From IMG/VR virus record IMGVR_UViG_3300031841_004534, positions 1-23,400 of that record: a stretch of DNA of 23,400 nt. One strand, written 5' to 3'. Positions 5,695 through 13,585 of this stretch are shown here, piece after piece (the first letter of the stretch is position 1; each line of letters begins with the position of its first letter). The notes under the pieces were generated by a model. That model worked only from the letters and a program-made list of their open reading frames with translations. It searched no databases and was not told the origin of the DNA. This DNA comes from a virus. A program made the position numbers and the translations under genes.

Positions 5695-7218
5695 ATGGCA
5701 AATACATCTCTTTATAGCGTTTACAGACGCACAGCTCGTGCTGCAGCAAAGCAACAAGTAGTTAAAAAAACATCTGACATTGATGTTGAAAAAGCAAGAA
5801 CAGATTTTGCATACTTCTGTAATGTTGTAGGAGATAAGCCACCAGCCAAACATATGATGCTTTGGCATGAGCATCTAAATACGCATGAAGACAGTGAATG
5901 CCTTGTTAACATTGCTGGTCCCAACGTTGATATTCTTGCTCCAAGGGGTAGCGCAAAATCTACAGTTTTAGGTTTGTTTACTGCATGGGCTATTGGCAAT
6001 CATGCAATGCATCGCAAGCCTCTAAAGATTCTTTATATCTCTTATACCGTAGATGTTGCACGTCCTAAAAGTGCTGCTATTAAAAGAATTATTGAAGAAA
6101 GTAAAGCATATCGTGAAATCTTTCCTAATGTAAAAATTGCAAAAGGAATTAACTCCAATGAATACTGGAGTATTGATTGGAAGTTTGCTGGTATTCGATC
6201 TACTGGTGAAGAAGAATTTACATTGTGTTGTGCAGGTCTTAAAGGTGCTGTGACATCTAAACGTTCGCATTTATGTATTATTGATGACGCGATTAAGTCA
6301 GCTGATGATATTAAAAATAAAGATATTCGTGTAGCAATGGAAGATAATTGGAACTCAGTTATTGTTCCTACTATGTTTGAAGGCGGGCGTGCTATCTGCC
6401 TTGGTACTCGATTCCGACATGATGATATTCATCAAACAACATTTACACCAAATAATGATTGGATTCAAATTGTTCAATCCGCAATTACCGTAGATAAAGA
6501 TGGAGAGGAAGAGTCGTATTGGCCAGAGATGTGGTCATTAGATTATCTTCGTGATCGCCGTAAAAAAGCACCAATTAGCTTTAGTTTTCAATATCAAAAC
6601 AAAATTGTTCAAACCAGTGAGATGTCAATCTCTCCTGACCTTATCATTAAAGGTCAGATTCCAACAGAGTTTGATTCCCTTGGTGTTGGCGTAGATCTTT
6701 CTGCTGGCATTAAAGAGCGTAATGATTACACTGTTTTTGTTATGGGCGGACGTATTAAAGAGAAGCTTTATATCATTGATTGCAAACGCATTAGGGTCAT
6801 GGGAAACATCGAAAAATTAGAAGCCCTAATGGAGATGATGTATGAGTGGGGGGTAATACATAAAGACGGTGACCAATATTATCCCACTGGCAGCAATATT
6901 GATATTTGGTCAGAAGCTGTTGCATACCAAGCATCGCTAGAAGCTGATTTCAAACGAATCTGTCTTGGTGAACACGGTCTTCATAATATGCTGTGGCATC
7001 CAGTTAAAGGATTCCGTGGAGATAAGGTTGCCAGGTTCCGTGGCATCATGGGTTTATTTGAACGTCATAAAATTACTTTTAATAAGTATCGTAAGTTCCA
7101 AGCACTTACTGATGAAATTATTAACTTTGGTGTTAGCTCACACGACGATACGGTTGATGCTCTTGTTTGGCTCTGTAACGGTTTAATGACTCGGGGAAAA
7201 CTCCAAGTTGAATTTTAA
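5695..7218 (+). CDS. terL: Terminase large subunit (TerL), packaging ATPase and nuclease
   Basis: The 507-residue protein has the complete TerL architecture. The ATPase part carries a Walker A motif (APRGSAKST, about 82-90) and a hydrophobic-then-acidic Walker B (LCIIDDA, about 193-199). A GTRF motif follows at about 236-239. The RNase H-like nuclease part shows the expected acidic residues: GVDLS near 331-335, the Glu in WSEAV near 406, and SHDDTVDA near 481-488. TerL translocates DNA into the procapsid through the portal and cuts the concatemer at initiation and termination. Length is normal for the family. The start at 5695 follows the junction palindrome. The next gene begins 67 bases later behind its own promoter. 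Confidence 0.95.
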   Translation: MANTSLYSVYRRTARAAAKQQVVKKTSDIDVEKARTDFAYFCNVVGDKPPAKHMMLWHEHLNTHEDSECLVNIAGPNVDILAPRGSAKSTVLGLFTAWAIGNHAMHRKPLKILYISYTVDVARPKSAAIKRIIEESKAYREIFPNVKIAKGINSNEYWSIDWKFAGIRSTGEEEFTLCCAGLKGAVTSKRSHLCIIDDAIKSADDIKNKDIRVAMEDNWNSVIVPTMFEGGRAICLGTRFRHDDIHQTTFTPNNDWIQIVQSAITVDKDGEEESYWPEMWSLDYLRDRRKKAPISFSFQYQNKIVQTSEMSISPDLIIKGQIPTEFDSLGVGVDLSAGIKERNDYTVFVMGGRIKEKLYIIDCKRIRVMGNIEKLEALMEMMYEWGVIHKDGDQYYPTGSNIDIWSEAVAYQASLEADFKRICLGEHGLHNMLWHPVKGFRGDKVARFRGIMGLFERHKITFNKYRKFQALTDEIINFGVSSHDDTVDALVWLCNGLMTRGKLQVEF

Positions 7219-7285: not shown

Positions 7286-7474
7286 ATGGCTTCTAATTTC
7301 TTTTACGAAGGTATTGAACTTGAGCAAGATGCTTATGGTTCTGCCATCATTAATCTTCCAGATGAACTCTGCCATGACCTTGGTCTCCAACCTGGTGAAC
7401 GGTTTGAAGTTGAAGCAGATGAAGAATCTCTGACCTTCAAGAGGATTGCACCTGGTTATGAAATTGAGGCATAA
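7286..7474 (+). CDS. AbrB/SpoVT-like swapped-hairpin protein, 62 aa
   Basis: This 62-residue protein matches the AbrB/MazE-type swapped-hairpin DNA-binding pattern over residues 19-54: a short strand (SAIINLPDEL), an Leu-Gly-Leu-x-x-Gly turn (LGLQPGERF), then two strands (EVEADEESLTFKRI). Members bind DNA as intertwined dimers and act as transition-state regulators or antitoxins. No toxin gene is adjacent, so an antitoxin role is unlikely. It is acidic for a DNA-binding protein. It sits alone between terL and portal and is the first gene after the strongest promoter in the window, so it would be made with the portal operon. It could be a phage regulator, a mimic of host AbrB proteins or a repurposed virion protein. 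The fold call is moderately confident; the role is unknown. Confidence 0.7.
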   Translation: MASNFFYEGIELEQDAYGSAIINLPDELCHDLGLQPGERFEVEADEESLTFKRIAPGYEIEA

Positions 7475-7495: not shown

Positions 7496-9742
7496 ATGAG
7501 CGAGACCAAAGCAGTATTTGAACAAATGCTTAATTCGGTCGTCAACCGGGAGTCAACCGGTGGCGCCGACACAATGCTGATTAGCGCTCACCTATCTCAA
7601 ATGAAAATGTTTGGGATTAGGCAGGGTGTTGAGTTTTATCCCGAACAAGATAACTTTGGTACTCAGCGCTTTGATTTTATTCAGCAAGTCATCAAATTCA
7701 ATAAACTTGATGCCAGGTTAGATTCAATTTGGGATCGTTTCCTTGCTCATGGTAAAGGTCTTTTTTACATTAGACCAACAGAAAAAACGTATCGGTTGTA
7801 TTGGTTTGATAAAGATGCTTACCGTAGTTACTACACACCAGAGGGTGATCTAGAAGAAGTTATTATCATTTATCCTTATAAAGTAAAATCCTCTAGTGGT
7901 TTTGCTGGCGTTGGTCTTTCAACAGATAAACGTTACATGCGTCTTCGCATTACAGCAGATACCATTGAGGAGATGCATAGTGAACAAGAACTTAGTTTTG
8001 ATACACCAGAGGAATTTACAGCAACTCAAAAAAAGACGTTAACAAATACACTGCAGTTTATCCCTTGTGTTGAAGTCTTCAATAATCCTGATGCTTTTGG
8101 TACTGATGGTAATGGTGAGTTTGATTGGTTAGCAAACCAGGTCGTTGCTCATGATGAAATGGTTAAAAACATCAGGGCAAACCTTTCGTTCTTTGGTAAT
8201 CCGACACTTTTATCATCGCGTCCAAAGCAAGATATTGTTGAATCAAATAATCTTGATACACCACAACGTCCTAGTATTTCCAGTCAATCTGGTTTTACTT
8301 CTGACCTTAGTATTCTTCAATCAACATATAAACAGGATCCTGTAACAAGGAATCCTGCGGGCTACATCGGTAGCCCTGGTGGCGGAATGCGCGTACCACG
8401 TGTAATTGCAAACCTGGAACCAACTGATCGTGTTGGTTTTATTACTCCTAATGCAATTAGTACAGATCAAGCACGTTACGCAGAACAGTTGCGTTCTGAA
8501 ATTCGTCTTGCTCTGGGTGGTATTGATGACCTTTCAATTACTAATGTTACTGCAACTGAAATTAAATCTGCCTATGGTCGTGTGAGTGCTACAGCTAAAA
8601 AGAAATGTTTGCAATTGTATAACTATGGTATCTGTAGGTGTTTTGAGTTAATGATCTTCCAGGAAGAGCAAATCTTCCGCAAAACATTAGCGCACGCTTC
8701 TGGTATTAAATATCCAGAAGCACCGGCAGATGAAAGTAAAGAAGCACTTGAAAAGTATAACAAACAAAAAGCAACTTATGAAAAAAAATTAGACAAAACA
8801 ATTAACAACGCTCTGGAAACAAAAGAGGTTCCAGATGGTGTCTTAGGGCTTGCTCCTGATGGTGATCGAACTGTTTCATGGAGGTGGATGGGTCCTGTTT
8901 ATGAAGACACTGCACAAGATAAATTAAATCAATCTATCTTTACTCGTAACCTACAAGAGTTAGGGGTTGATAGCATTGAAGCACTGAAGTATTTGTTTCC
9001 TTCAAAAACGGATGATGAAATTGCCGGAATGCTTTCCGGTTTTCCATTCCGAATGGTTGGTCAAGTACAGAAGGCTTATTCGCAATTCATTGATTTAATC
9101 AATCAAGAAATGCGAACACCGCATCCTCAGCAACCGGATCTTCCAATGGCTGCGGATCCACGACTTGATCTCACTCCTTTCCTTTACAGAACTTTAGAAA
9201 GCCTACAAAAAGAGGTAACCTATGCAGGCCGATACCGTAATGCCGACCCAATCGGCACCCCAAGCATCCCCGACCCAACCGAGCAGCTACGCGGCTCCAG
9301 TCCAGACCGCAGCTACGGCTCCAGCGGTTTCTACCAATTCCCAATGGGTGGCACCACAGCAAACAACAGTGGCCCCAGCCCCGCAAATGCAGGCCCAGAT
9401 GGGGGTGCAGGAACAATACAACCCTACTCAATACTCCCCCCAGGTGCCCCAATCGGTACCACAGACGGACAACCCCTACAAGGAAGCGTTCAATCGAGTA
9501 GTGGGGCTCCTGAGTTCACCAGTGCAGCTCCCGTTCCTGGGTCAACAGTCGGCGCAGAACCAACAAGCCGTCCCGGCCAATTACAGTTCCCCGCAGGTTC
9601 CCCAGTACAACAACCTGGATCAGCCGATCTCGCAGCCTGGGATCGTGAACAACCCGGCTTACTCCAGCGGTTATTCCCAAACTTCGCAGGAACTCAGCCG
9701 GGACCAGCTCCTCGCAAACGGGGTAAGCGAAGCAAGTCTTGA
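7496..9742 (+). CDS. Portal protein with a Pro/Gly-rich C-terminal extension, 748 aa
   Basis: The 748-residue protein follows terL and precedes the scaffold and capsid genes, the standard portal position. The portal forms the dodecameric ring at the head vertex through which TerL drives DNA. Residues 1-575 have the mixed alpha/beta, Asn/Gln-rich composition of large portals. The region near 320-370 (PNAISTDQARYAEQLRSEI, then TATEIKSAYGR) resembles the central helices of podovirus-type portals. From about residue 576 the composition changes to Pro/Gly/Ser/Gln with no predictable fold, ending in a basic PRKRGKRSKS tail. That extension is the part also read in another frame as the start of the next gene. 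There is no earlier stop, so the extension is part of the protein unless a frameshift occurs. Confidence 0.8.
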   Translation: MSETKAVFEQMLNSVVNRESTGGADTMLISAHLSQMKMFGIRQGVEFYPEQDNFGTQRFDFIQQVIKFNKLDARLDSIWDRFLAHGKGLFYIRPTEKTYRLYWFDKDAYRSYYTPEGDLEEVIIIYPYKVKSSSGFAGVGLSTDKRYMRLRITADTIEEMHSEQELSFDTPEEFTATQKKTLTNTLQFIPCVEVFNNPDAFGTDGNGEFDWLANQVVAHDEMVKNIRANLSFFGNPTLLSSRPKQDIVESNNLDTPQRPSISSQSGFTSDLSILQSTYKQDPVTRNPAGYIGSPGGGMRVPRVIANLEPTDRVGFITPNAISTDQARYAEQLRSEIRLALGGIDDLSITNVTATEIKSAYGRVSATAKKKCLQLYNYGICRCFELMIFQEEQIFRKTLAHASGIKYPEAPADESKEALEKYNKQKATYEKKLDKTINNALETKEVPDGVLGLAPDGDRTVSWRWMGPVYEDTAQDKLNQSIFTRNLQELGVDSIEALKYLFPSKTDDEIAGMLSGFPFRMVGQVQKAYSQFIDLINQEMRTPHPQQPDLPMAADPRLDLTPFLYRTLESLQKEVTYAGRYRNADPIGTPSIPDPTEQLRGSSPDRSYGSSGFYQFPMGGTTANNSGPSPANAGPDGGAGTIQPYSILPPGAPIGTTDGQPLQGSVQSSSGAPEFTSAAPVPGSTVGAEPTSRPGQLQFPAGSPVQQPGSADLAAWDREQPGLLQRLFPNFAGTQPGPAPRKRGKRSKS
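9211..9216 (+). promoter_or_regulatory. Ribosome-binding site deciding the internal scaffold start
   Basis: AGAGGT lies 5 bases upstream of the ATG at 9222, inside the portal coding sequence. It overlaps the TAA (9216-9218) that closes the scaffold frame upstream. It supports independent initiation at 9222 rather than a later internal start. Confidence 0.6.
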
Positions 9743-10229
9743 AGTTATTGATCATTTCGGTGCTGATGCTCCTGCCATCTTAAATCAGTACAGCTGCAAA
9801 CTGGAAGATAACCTCATTCAAAATAATGAGCAGCTTCAGCAAGCTGTTGGTCTTCTTCAAGAATTGGCTGATGAGCATCGTGCTTATGAAAAGATCCTGA
9901 CCGATCCTGATGTGCTTGCTGATTACACCTGTGAGTTCTTTGGTGAAAATGGTCCTTATCCTATTCCCGATGAGGAAGTGGGTTATGGTCAAGCCCCTCA
10001 AATGATGCAGGCTCCTCAAGCTCCTCAGGCACCTCAGGCTGCCCCTCAACAGTACATGCGTCCCGAAATGCCGGTTCCCCCTCAGCCGCAGCCTCAGGGC
10101 AATCCTGCTGACTTCTGGAACAGCTTTGGTAACCTTGCTGATCGTGATCCTGCTAATGCCTGGCGTTATCTAAATGCTGCTCAGCAAAATCCTGAAGTGT
10201 TCCGCAGCAAAATGCTTGTGATGGAGTGA
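9222..10229 (+). CDS. Probable scaffolding protein, N-terminus overprinted on portal, 335 aa
   Basis: The frame opens abruptly: a TAA ends it at 9216-9218, one codon before the ATG, and a good ribosome-binding site (AGAGGT, 9211-9216) precedes the start. Residues 1-150 are Pro/Gln/Ala/Ser-rich and disordered. From about 156 (LSRDQLLANGVSEASLEVI) the protein becomes acidic and helical (LQQAVGLLQELADEHRAYE), then has an APQAPQAPQ repeat (about 262-273) and a short helical C-terminus (FWNSFGNLADRDPANAWRY). An acidic helical protein between portal and capsid is typically the scaffold, which shapes the procapsid and then leaves. The first 521 bases lie inside portal in the +1 frame. The terminator at 10263 follows. 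Confidence 0.75.
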   Translation: MQADTVMPTQSAPQASPTQPSSYAAPVQTAATAPAVSTNSQWVAPQQTTVAPAPQMQAQMGVQEQYNPTQYSPQVPQSVPQTDNPYKEAFNRVVGLLSSPVQLPFLGQQSAQNQQAVPANYSSPQVPQYNNLDQPISQPGIVNNPAYSSGYSQTSQELSRDQLLANGVSEASLEVIDHFGADAPAILNQYSCKLEDNLIQNNEQLQQAVGLLQELADEHRAYEKILTDPDVLADYTCEFFGENGPYPIPDEEVGYGQAPQMMQAPQAPQAPQAAPQQYMRPEMPVPPQPQPQGNPADFWNSFGNLADRDPANAWRYLNAAQQNPEVFRSKMLVME

Positions 10230-11057: not shown

Positions 11058-12203
11058 ATGTTTATTGATAACGATTTTCCAAAACTGCTTGGTGCGGAAC
11101 TTTATCGTCCCCACCCTGCATACATCGTGGAAATGGCTTGCGAGCCTGTGGTTGTCCACGATTTTACTAAGCAGCCTGGTCAAACTGTTCAGTTAGACCG
11201 TTACCGGTTCTTCGGTAATCCTGGCACTAAGACCAGCCGTGAGCGTACCCAAGATCAAACGATTGGTACTGCTAACAGCCGGTCTATTGTCAAGGATAAA
11301 GTGCTGGTGTCTCTCCGTGAGTATACCGGTCCTGCTGATCCGAATAACACCAATCTTCCGAGCACCTTTAAAATTGCTCGTGAGACCTTAATGACTGCTC
11401 AGCGTCTGCTTCTGGACACTGGCAATCTGAACATGTTCCACCAGTCCATCGGCAGCCTCACCCTGCTTGATGACTACCGTCGTTGGCGCGATCGTGTCTT
11501 CCTTGATGAACTCTTTAAGGCAGAATCTCGCGGTCAATCTTCTGATACCCAAGGCGGTTATTACTATCCTAATAACAAAGCCAAGACTGGTACTACTACT
11601 CTGACTGCCTACTCTGCTACTGAGTATGCTTCTGAGCGCTTTAAGTTCAATGTAAAGACTGACCTCCTCGAAGTGGTCAAAGGTCTTCGTAAGCGTAACG
11701 TTCCCGTCTTCGCTGATGGCTACTATCGTTGTATTGCTGATCCCTCTTTCATGAAGGATCTGCGTGCCGATCAAGGCTTCCGTGAAGTGGCGCGTTACCC
11801 TGGCATGGGTCAGCCTAATCCCCTGATGGGTATGATGGCTCCTAACGCTGCTCTCTACGGTGGCGGCCAGTATGGTCAAGCCCAATTCGTGGGTGGTGAG
11901 CCTGTGATGCCTTCTGGTTTTGTGTTTGAAGGTGTGCGTTTCTTCGAATCCACCAACTTCCCCTCCAAGTCCATTACTGTGGACATTGGTGGCGGTTCTG
12001 GTGCTATTTCTCATGATACTCCCCCGGCTCTGTTCTTCGGTCCCCAGGCCGTTGGTGTTGGTATCGGTGGTCCTAACGCTCAAGTCCTCATCAACAACAA
12101 TGATGACTTCAGCCGTTTCATTATTCTTATCTGGCAACTCTACGCTGGTTTTGCTAATCTGAATAAGGACTTCACCACTGTTGCCTTTACCATTACTGAG
12201 TGA
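11058..12203 (+). CDS. Probable major capsid protein, 381 aa
   Basis: The 381-residue protein lies downstream of portal and scaffold, at a typical length for an HK97-fold capsid subunit. The fold cannot be proved by eye. Supporting features are a mixed alpha/beta composition with charged helices (DDYRRWRDRVFLDELFK, about 138-154), an extended Gly/Pro/Asn-rich segment, and an apolar beta-rich C-terminus. Codon choice is strongly biased toward codons such as CGT, GGT, AAC, TTC, ACC and CTG/CTC, unlike most neighbours, as expected for the most abundant virion protein. It has its own promoter and structured leader. The next gene follows at 20 bases with a perfect ribosome-binding site. A 249-codon open frame on the other strand here is a by-product of codon bias. 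Confidence 0.75.
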   Translation: MFIDNDFPKLLGAELYRPHPAYIVEMACEPVVVHDFTKQPGQTVQLDRYRFFGNPGTKTSRERTQDQTIGTANSRSIVKDKVLVSLREYTGPADPNNTNLPSTFKIARETLMTAQRLLLDTGNLNMFHQSIGSLTLLDDYRRWRDRVFLDELFKAESRGQSSDTQGGYYYPNNKAKTGTTTLTAYSATEYASERFKFNVKTDLLEVVKGLRKRNVPVFADGYYRCIADPSFMKDLRADQGFREVARYPGMGQPNPLMGMMAPNAALYGGGQYGQAQFVGGEPVMPSGFVFEGVRFFESTNFPSKSITVDIGGGSGAISHDTPPALFFGPQAVGVGIGGPNAQVLINNNDDFSRFIILIWQLYAGFANLNKDFTTVAFTITE

Positions 12204-13095: not shown

Positions 13096-13144
13096 ATGTT
13101 TATAGGTAAAGTTTGGTATTGTATTGATAGCCCTTATTGCTTTG

Positions 13145-13585
13145 ATGCTTTATCAATACAAACCAACAGGTTCTCTTGTTGAAATGATCTCCAAACATGG
13201 AGATAGAATTGTGATGTGCGTTGATGCTCAAGATGAAGTTCTTTACGTTCATGAAGAAGATCTTCAACCCCATCTTGAAGCAACAACTGAAAAGATTAAA
13301 ACAGAAGAACGTCTTACTGAATCTCTGAAAGCAGAAGGTGTTAACCCACCAATTCCTGCCAAAAAAGAGACATTCCCTGTTGATACTAGAATTAATATCA
13401 ATACTGCCAGTGCACGTCAAATTGCTGATGCTCTCCCTGGTGTTGGTCTTAAAACAGCACGCGATATTAAAGATTTACAATCTTCCATGATGGGAGAGAA
13501 ATTTTTGAAACTTGAACAATTACGTGCAATTAAACGTATTGATTGGGATGAAATCTTTAAAGAGAATCTTGTTCGTGTAGAATAA
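13145..13585 (+). CDS. ComEA-like helix-hairpin-helix protein, 146 aa
   Basis: I start at the ATG at 13145 (MLYQYKPTGS). A TTG at 13124 would add only a short apolar stretch. Residues 1-45 look like a small beta domain (SLVEMISKHGDRIVMCVD, then VLYVHEEDL). A charged helical linker follows (EKIKTEERLTESLKAE). From about residue 83 to the end there is a ComEA-type double HhH: ININTASARQIADALPGVG, then KTARDIKDL, then FLKLEQLRAIKRIDWDEI. The INxNTAS...LPGVG signature is characteristic of this family, which binds DNA non-specifically through the backbone. In the head/connector region it may grip the packaged DNA end or act in head completion, which is inference. No obvious ribosome-binding site precedes it. 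Confidence 0.75.
   Translation: MLYQYKPTGSLVEMISKHGDRIVMCVDAQDEVLYVHEEDLQPHLEATTEKIKTEERLTESLKAEGVNPPIPAKKETFPVDTRININTASARQIADALPGVGLKTARDIKDLQSSMMGEKFLKLEQLRAIKRIDWDEIFKENLVRVE

Follow-up and report, generated by a model that had tools for sequence, protein, structure and literature searches.

A long out-of-frame overlap of the portal gene and a probable scaffold gene in the S-EIV1 lineage of cyanophages

Out-of-frame gene overlap in tailed phages is exemplified by the Rz/Rz1 spanin genes of lambda-type phages, whose products both act in one process, while lambda C and Nu3 illustrate a scaffold gene sharing DNA with another head gene, in this case in the same frame and with a shared C-terminus. 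The locus described here, part of a 23.4-kb virus record (the window), differs from both. Rz1 is short, nested and involved in lysis, whereas in the lineage of the window the end of one head-assembly gene runs over the start of another for 464-677 nucleotides (nt), and Nu3 is in frame with C, whereas the frames of the portal gene and its neighbor, f2, differ and yield two unrelated sequences. Phage T7 (genes 8-9-10) and phage N4 (94-kDa protein, gp58, gp57 and major coat protein) resemble the window in gene order, with a portal, one or more intervening genes and the major capsid protein (MCP) in succession, yet neither has a portal overlap. Overlaps in dsDNA viruses are generally short, those beyond 2 kb being cited for ssRNA+ viruses, and a survey of 12,609 virus genomes reported a median of 14 nt (interquartile range 8-26) for same-strand +1 overlaps (PMC8903798). 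Likewise, 84% of annotated virus overlaps measure under 50 nt (PMC7017920). The overlap of portal and f2, two head-assembly genes of a tailed phage that are read out of frame with each other, is unusually long and stable. No out-of-frame portal-scaffold overlap was reported in the literature searched, although such a report may exist elsewhere. The lineage, which is widespread, has kept dual coding of this length through deep divergence. With hundreds of sequences available, it provides a natural case in which the sharing of constraint between two proteins can be measured for each base, as well as a concrete test of why long overlaps persist.

Layout of the overlap in the window

The portal open reading frame (ORF; 748 aa, ATG start) occupies positions 7496-9742 of the window, and the ORF of the second gene, f2, a probable head scaffold (335 aa, ATG start), occupies positions 9222-10229. 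The two share 521 nt (9222-9742), with f2 in phase +1 relative to the portal. Both ORFs and all their parts named below lie on the plus strand, as do the genes of the terminase large subunit (TerL; 5695..7218; PHROG 38, E=1.4e-77; Pfam Terminase_6C) and of the MCP (11058..12203; PHROG 1357 major head protein, E=1.8e-15). The portal frame alone encodes a structured core of residues 1-575 (7496..9221), while the overlap (9222..9742), with selection on both frames as described below, encodes the portal tail (residues 576-748) together with f2 residues 1-173. An f2-frame stop, TAA (9216..9218), stands one codon upstream of the f2 ATG, and a Shine-Dalgarno-like AAGAGG (9210..9215) is embedded in the portal codons Lys572-Glu573-Val574. 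An earlier sequence-only reading had described both ORFs, the 521-nt overlap and the preceding TAA, all of which were recovered exact to the base and in phase +1, and its hand counts of G+C per 60 bases (41, 35, 17 and 23) were all exact on recount. The G+C content is 0.397 in 7496-9221, 0.593 in 9222-9742 and 0.485 in 9743-10229, and the GC-richest 521-nt stretch of the whole window begins at 9212 and is thus essentially the overlap. When the portal tail was recoded with synonymous codons, the f2 frame was still open in 19-27% of trials, and when the f2 protein was recoded, the portal frame was still open in 0.04-4%, with a mean of 9.6 portal-frame stops under core codon usage. Evidence from the single genome for an overlap beyond chance is modest; that from the comparison of related sequences is decisive.

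Other features of the neighborhood include a 62-aa AbrB/MazE-like ORF (7286-7474) between TerL and the portal, for which the matches are either weak or fall short of the curated cut-offs (phrog_661, E=2.7e-7; TIGR01439, E=0.005), and a small head-region protein with a helix-hairpin-helix domain (13124-13585; PF12836, E=3.7e-6). The MCP of the window also shows a match, weak and below the cut-off, to the N4-gp56 capsid family (E=6.7e-5).

Relatives of the window and the isolate S-EIV1

Synechococcus phage S-EIV1 (KJ410740) is the nearest isolate to the window and the only relative in culture that was found. The TerL, portal and MCP of the two are homologous and best matches (65%, 52% and 70% identical, respectively), which places the window in the S-EIV1 lineage of cyanophages. 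S-EIV1 also carries the portal/f2 overlap, here 554 nt long, in the same phase and with the same start context, its portal being ~52-57% and its f2 ~41% identical to those of the window. This overlap is unrecorded in GenBank because f2 is annotated solely as a 3' remnant (AHV82225.1, 59863-60264) following the portal stop at 59840, and for the sole isolate that the phage collection contains, the annotation consequently omits the N-terminal half of this conserved structural protein. A second misannotation in GenBank concerns the S-EIV1 major capsid gene (60859-61983 by tblastn; locus L002, KJ410740.1 60784-62010), which is given as an antisense ORF (AHV82227) and a C-terminal piece (AHV82228).

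Among 192 distinct related portal sequences, counted once duplicates and broken loci had been left out, all 192 have the overlap, in the same phase and with its start at the same portal residues, its length ranging from 464 to 677 nt. These portals fall into four clades, each monophyletic with a support of 0.91-1.0, between which the portal cores are ~47-57% identical; the overlap measures 476-548 nt in clade A, 518-677 nt in clade B, 500-506 nt in clade C and 464-536 nt in clade D. The first two locus sets showed an overlap of several hundred nt in 129 of the 130 loci with a readable portal end, and the two more distant clades came from a third set. The sole exception among the 130, L107, has its portal stop in the last bases of the contig and an open f2 frame, and is uninformative. 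Across loci, not one f2-frame stop occurs in 22,107 codons of the overlap, as opposed to 4.35% per codon in the portal core. A single indel breaks or swaps both frames in L223, most simply an assembly or sequencing error, and the portal frame of L184 and L165 is broken upstream of the overlap.

Searches of isolates with the portal (E up to 10) recovered S-EIV1 alone, those with f2 gave two further matches at chance level, and a search of genome-assembly contigs yielded four loci, all of the same phage lineage. Degenerate patterns built to exclude the four clades gave no matches and hence no overlap-free relative; one further pattern had a single match, L286, which is unrelated. The sequence-only reading had listed three findings that would speak against dual coding, namely relatives whose portal stops near 9220, close relatives with stops in one frame, and an indel artefact. 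All three were sought and not found, and a sequencing indel or assembly artefact as the source of the overlap is ruled out by the 192 distinct sequences. Comparison across the lineage indicates that the overlap is genuine and old in the S-EIV1 lineage of cyanophages. Four contigs of the lineage (L163, L164, L165 and L166) are binned in assemblies labelled Bacteroidetes, Puniceicoccaceae or unnamed bacterium, and are probably misbinned phage contigs.

The two products and the start of f2

The ORF at 7496-9742 had been read as a portal gene, an identity that is supported by a fold search with a structural model. Although the AlphaFold2 model (m7014d8538097) is of low overall confidence (pLDDT 43.5), its more confident parts match portal proteins, and the top PDB ranks of its Foldseek search are all portal proteins, the best being that of 80alpha (E=1.5e-6), followed by those of NF5, SaPI1, cyanophage P-SCSP1u and T7. 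In addition, the protein matches the head and packaging profile PHROG 20475 (E=1e-212) and, weakly, the portal protein profile phrog_64, and its gene sits between those of TerL and the MCP; no homology to the N4 94-kDa protein was detectable. The C-terminal crown of known portals points to the inside of the head. The overlap begins within the last predicted long helix of the portal core (555-582), which makes the tail an addition beyond a complete portal. This tail is rich in Pro, Gly and Ser, is predicted to be disordered and has a basic end in all clades (RKRGKRSKS and relatives; 9713..9739 in the window), the net charge of the last 20 residues lying between +4 and +8 in 14 clade C/D sequences and, with two exceptions, in 118 clade A/B sequences.

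The product of f2 is acidic, with a net charge of -21 in the window and -13 to -24 across relatives, and its AlphaFold2 model (m377d5df0c702; mean pLDDT 50, low confidence) predicts a disordered N-terminal half, a helix at 85-98, a helical domain at 160-240 and C-terminal helices at 295-333. Both products of the overlap had been described as disordered, which is mostly borne out, the exceptions being an invariant helix of f2 (NPYKEAFNRVVGLLSSPVQLPF) as well as conserved motifs and the basic C-terminus of the portal tail. In all clades, f2 is the only common gene between the portal and the MCP, and the gap separating it from the MCP gene, 112 to 4680 nt long, differs in gene content from clade to clade. 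No matches to f2 were found in Pfam, PHROGs, NCBIfam, PDB sequences or BFVD folds, nor was homology to T7 gp9 or N4 gp57 detectable, so that neither its sequence nor its predicted fold resembles a known scaffold. Scaffolds diverge fast, however, and missing similarity does not exclude such a role. The earlier designation of f2 as a scaffold is a reasonable inference from gene order and composition alone, and we consider this role probable. Clade D carries a gene for a sigma-70-type factor between f2 and the major capsid gene (L188:6767-7705 and L178:5329-6270, both on the minus strand), which in L188 is full, with Pfam regions 1.2, 2, 3 and 4; clades A and B have small unrelated ORFs at this place.

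Translation of f2 most likely starts independently inside the portal gene, as suggested by the sequence ahead of its start codon. Portal Lys572 is written AAG in 97 of 97 and Glu573 GAG in 98 of 98 clade B sequences, compared with core codon shares of 0.34 and 0.30, and the same holds for all eight clade D sequences at each residue (AAG 8/8, GAG 8/8), where, as in clade B, these codons make up ~30-45% of their families in the core. Synonymous choice thus keeps AAGGAG/GAGG ahead of the f2 start. Clade A writes AAAGAGG or AAGGAAG at this position, and clade D has AAGGAG in front of a GTG start; clade C starts at an ATG a few codons further on and has no clear ribosome-binding site before it. In all four clades, nearly every sequence has an f2-frame stop just ahead of the f2 start. 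Consensus folding around the start gave only five pairs and no covariation, pointing to a region that is not structured, and there was no match in Rfam. It had also been proposed that the overlap ties portal and scaffold levels. Both genes would indeed be on one message, but the portal frame continues for 521 nt past the f2 start before it stops, and coupling by termination and reinitiation is therefore not possible.

Selection on the two frames and competing explanations

Constraint in both frames among related phages, as called for by the sequence-only reading, was measured by classing each possible and observed difference as silent or replacing in either frame for 59 disjoint pairs of relatives, with intervals obtained by bootstrapping codon columns; the counting logic is reportedly that of the OLGenie and Wei-Zhang methods. 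Over the overlap, the f2 w (NN/NS, with the portal effect fixed) is 0.28 (0.24-0.33), compared with a control of 0.70 (0.63-0.78) in the same phase of the portal core, which holds no second gene and hence reveals the bias of the method. Conversely, the portal w, with the f2 effect fixed, is 0.44 (0.35-0.55), compared with 1.21 (0.95-1.50) in the same phase of the part encoding f2 only. By clade, the f2 w is 0.32, 0.32, 0.52 and 0.39 for A, B, C and D, with matching controls of 0.71, 0.78, 0.78 and 0.90, clades C and D being represented by three pairs each and the clade C interval touching its control. Portal-silent changes are ~6.5-fold rarer in the overlap than in the core (d=0.115 against 0.754), whereas those silent in both frames remain common (d of 1.40 in the core and 1.16 in the overlap), so that the constraint is coding and is not explained by a nucleotide element or a low mutation rate. 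Judged against the unused-phase controls, these values indicate purifying selection on both frames.

The heavier constraint alternates between the frames along the overlap, being strong for the portal at 9222-9280 and 9608-9685 and for f2 at 9278-9380 and 9461-9540. The most constrained f2 stretch, NPYKEAFNRVVGLLSSPVQLPF (f2 residues 84-105; 9471..9536), has invariant columns in the alignment and an f2 w of 0.04-0.14 in windows at 9461-9497, and the NP(W/Y)..A of this helix stretch is kept in four clades. In the portal tail, the most constrained stretch is GSADLAAWDREQPGLLQRLFPNF (portal residues 708-730; 9617..9685), with a portal w of 0.10-0.22 in windows at 9608-9656, and its G-x-x-D is likewise kept in four clades. 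Portal synonymous variation is already about two-fold lower (close pairs) over the ~285 nt that precede the f2 start (8936-9218) in clades A and B, with a partial effect in C and hardly any in D; this stretch has no other open frame, and its third positions change from T to A/G.

The best explanation, which we regard as very probable, is a dual-coded overlap in which both readings are needed, one giving the portal tail and the other the N-terminal half of a scaffold-like protein, and which would be kept for this reason. Dual coding itself is strongly supported by universal conservation, by purifying selection on both frames and by a ribosome-binding site kept through synonymous choice; translation, the identity of the scaffold and contact within the head are inferred. 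One mRNA would bear the portal gene, and ribosomes would also start internally on f2, using a ribosome-binding site of its own at the end of the structured portal core, and would read the following 521 nt in the +1 frame as well. The portal frame would use the shared bases for a flexible Pro/Gly/Ser tail of ~173 residues with a conserved motif and a basic C-terminus, and the f2 frame for the N-terminal half of a head-assembly protein that is acidic and scaffold-like. The tail most likely projects from the crown into the procapsid, where it may contact the scaffold or packaged DNA, and the N-terminal half of f2, with its helix at 84-105, may serve in nucleating the head at the portal.

Alternatively, f2 alone could be functional in the overlap, the portal tail being a passive extension left open by GC-rich, stop-poor sequence. 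The predicted disorder of the tail and a portal w that is near neutral (about 0.85-1.3) at ~9302-9380 and also close to the very end would fit, yet this is improbable given the portal w of 0.44 over the whole overlap against 1.21 in the unused phase, the minimum of 0.10-0.22 at 9608-9656, the motifs and basic C-terminus kept in four clades, and the mean of 9.6 portal-frame stops that recoding of f2 introduces. The opposite view, that the true start of f2 lies beyond the portal stop and that its frame before this point is spurious, has the GenBank annotation of the only isolate on its side, but it is contradicted by the selection tests (f2 w of 0.28 in the overlap and 0.04 at the helix motif), by the complete lack of stops and by the conserved start and ribosome-binding site, and is very unlikely.

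There is equally little chance that the overlap is the junction of a programmed +1 frameshift yielding a portal-scaffold fusion, besides or instead of the separate proteins: the +1 phase would permit it and the fusion would join functional neighbors, but f2 is equipped with a start and a ribosome-binding site of its own, and one codon ahead of that start an in-frame stop is present in nearly all sequences of the four clades. A minor fusion product might nevertheless be made. Finally, a DNA or RNA element, such as a packaging site or RNA structure, might account for the conservation, as could be argued from the reduced synonymous variation upstream, at 8936-9218, where there is no second frame. 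The near-equal frequency of double-silent substitutions in overlap (1.16) and core (1.40), the mere five pairs without covariation at the f2 start and the absence of an Rfam match make this extremely unlikely.

An origin of the overlap by de novo extension through overprinting, as the sequence-only reading had suggested, is plausible. The recoding trials mildly favor an extension of f2 over an older portal tail, bearing in mind that both frames have shaped the present sequences. Neither frame has typical codon usage, the portal frame departing from it slightly less (-0.19 versus -0.29; 96 of 118 loci). It could also be speculated, with considerable doubt, that the overlap acts as a linkage lock, the portal tail and scaffold N-terminus being two interacting head parts that lie on the same bases, so that neither is exchangeable by recombination alone, while other genes freely invade the adjoining scaffold-to-capsid gap (112-4680 nt, with a sigma factor in clade D).
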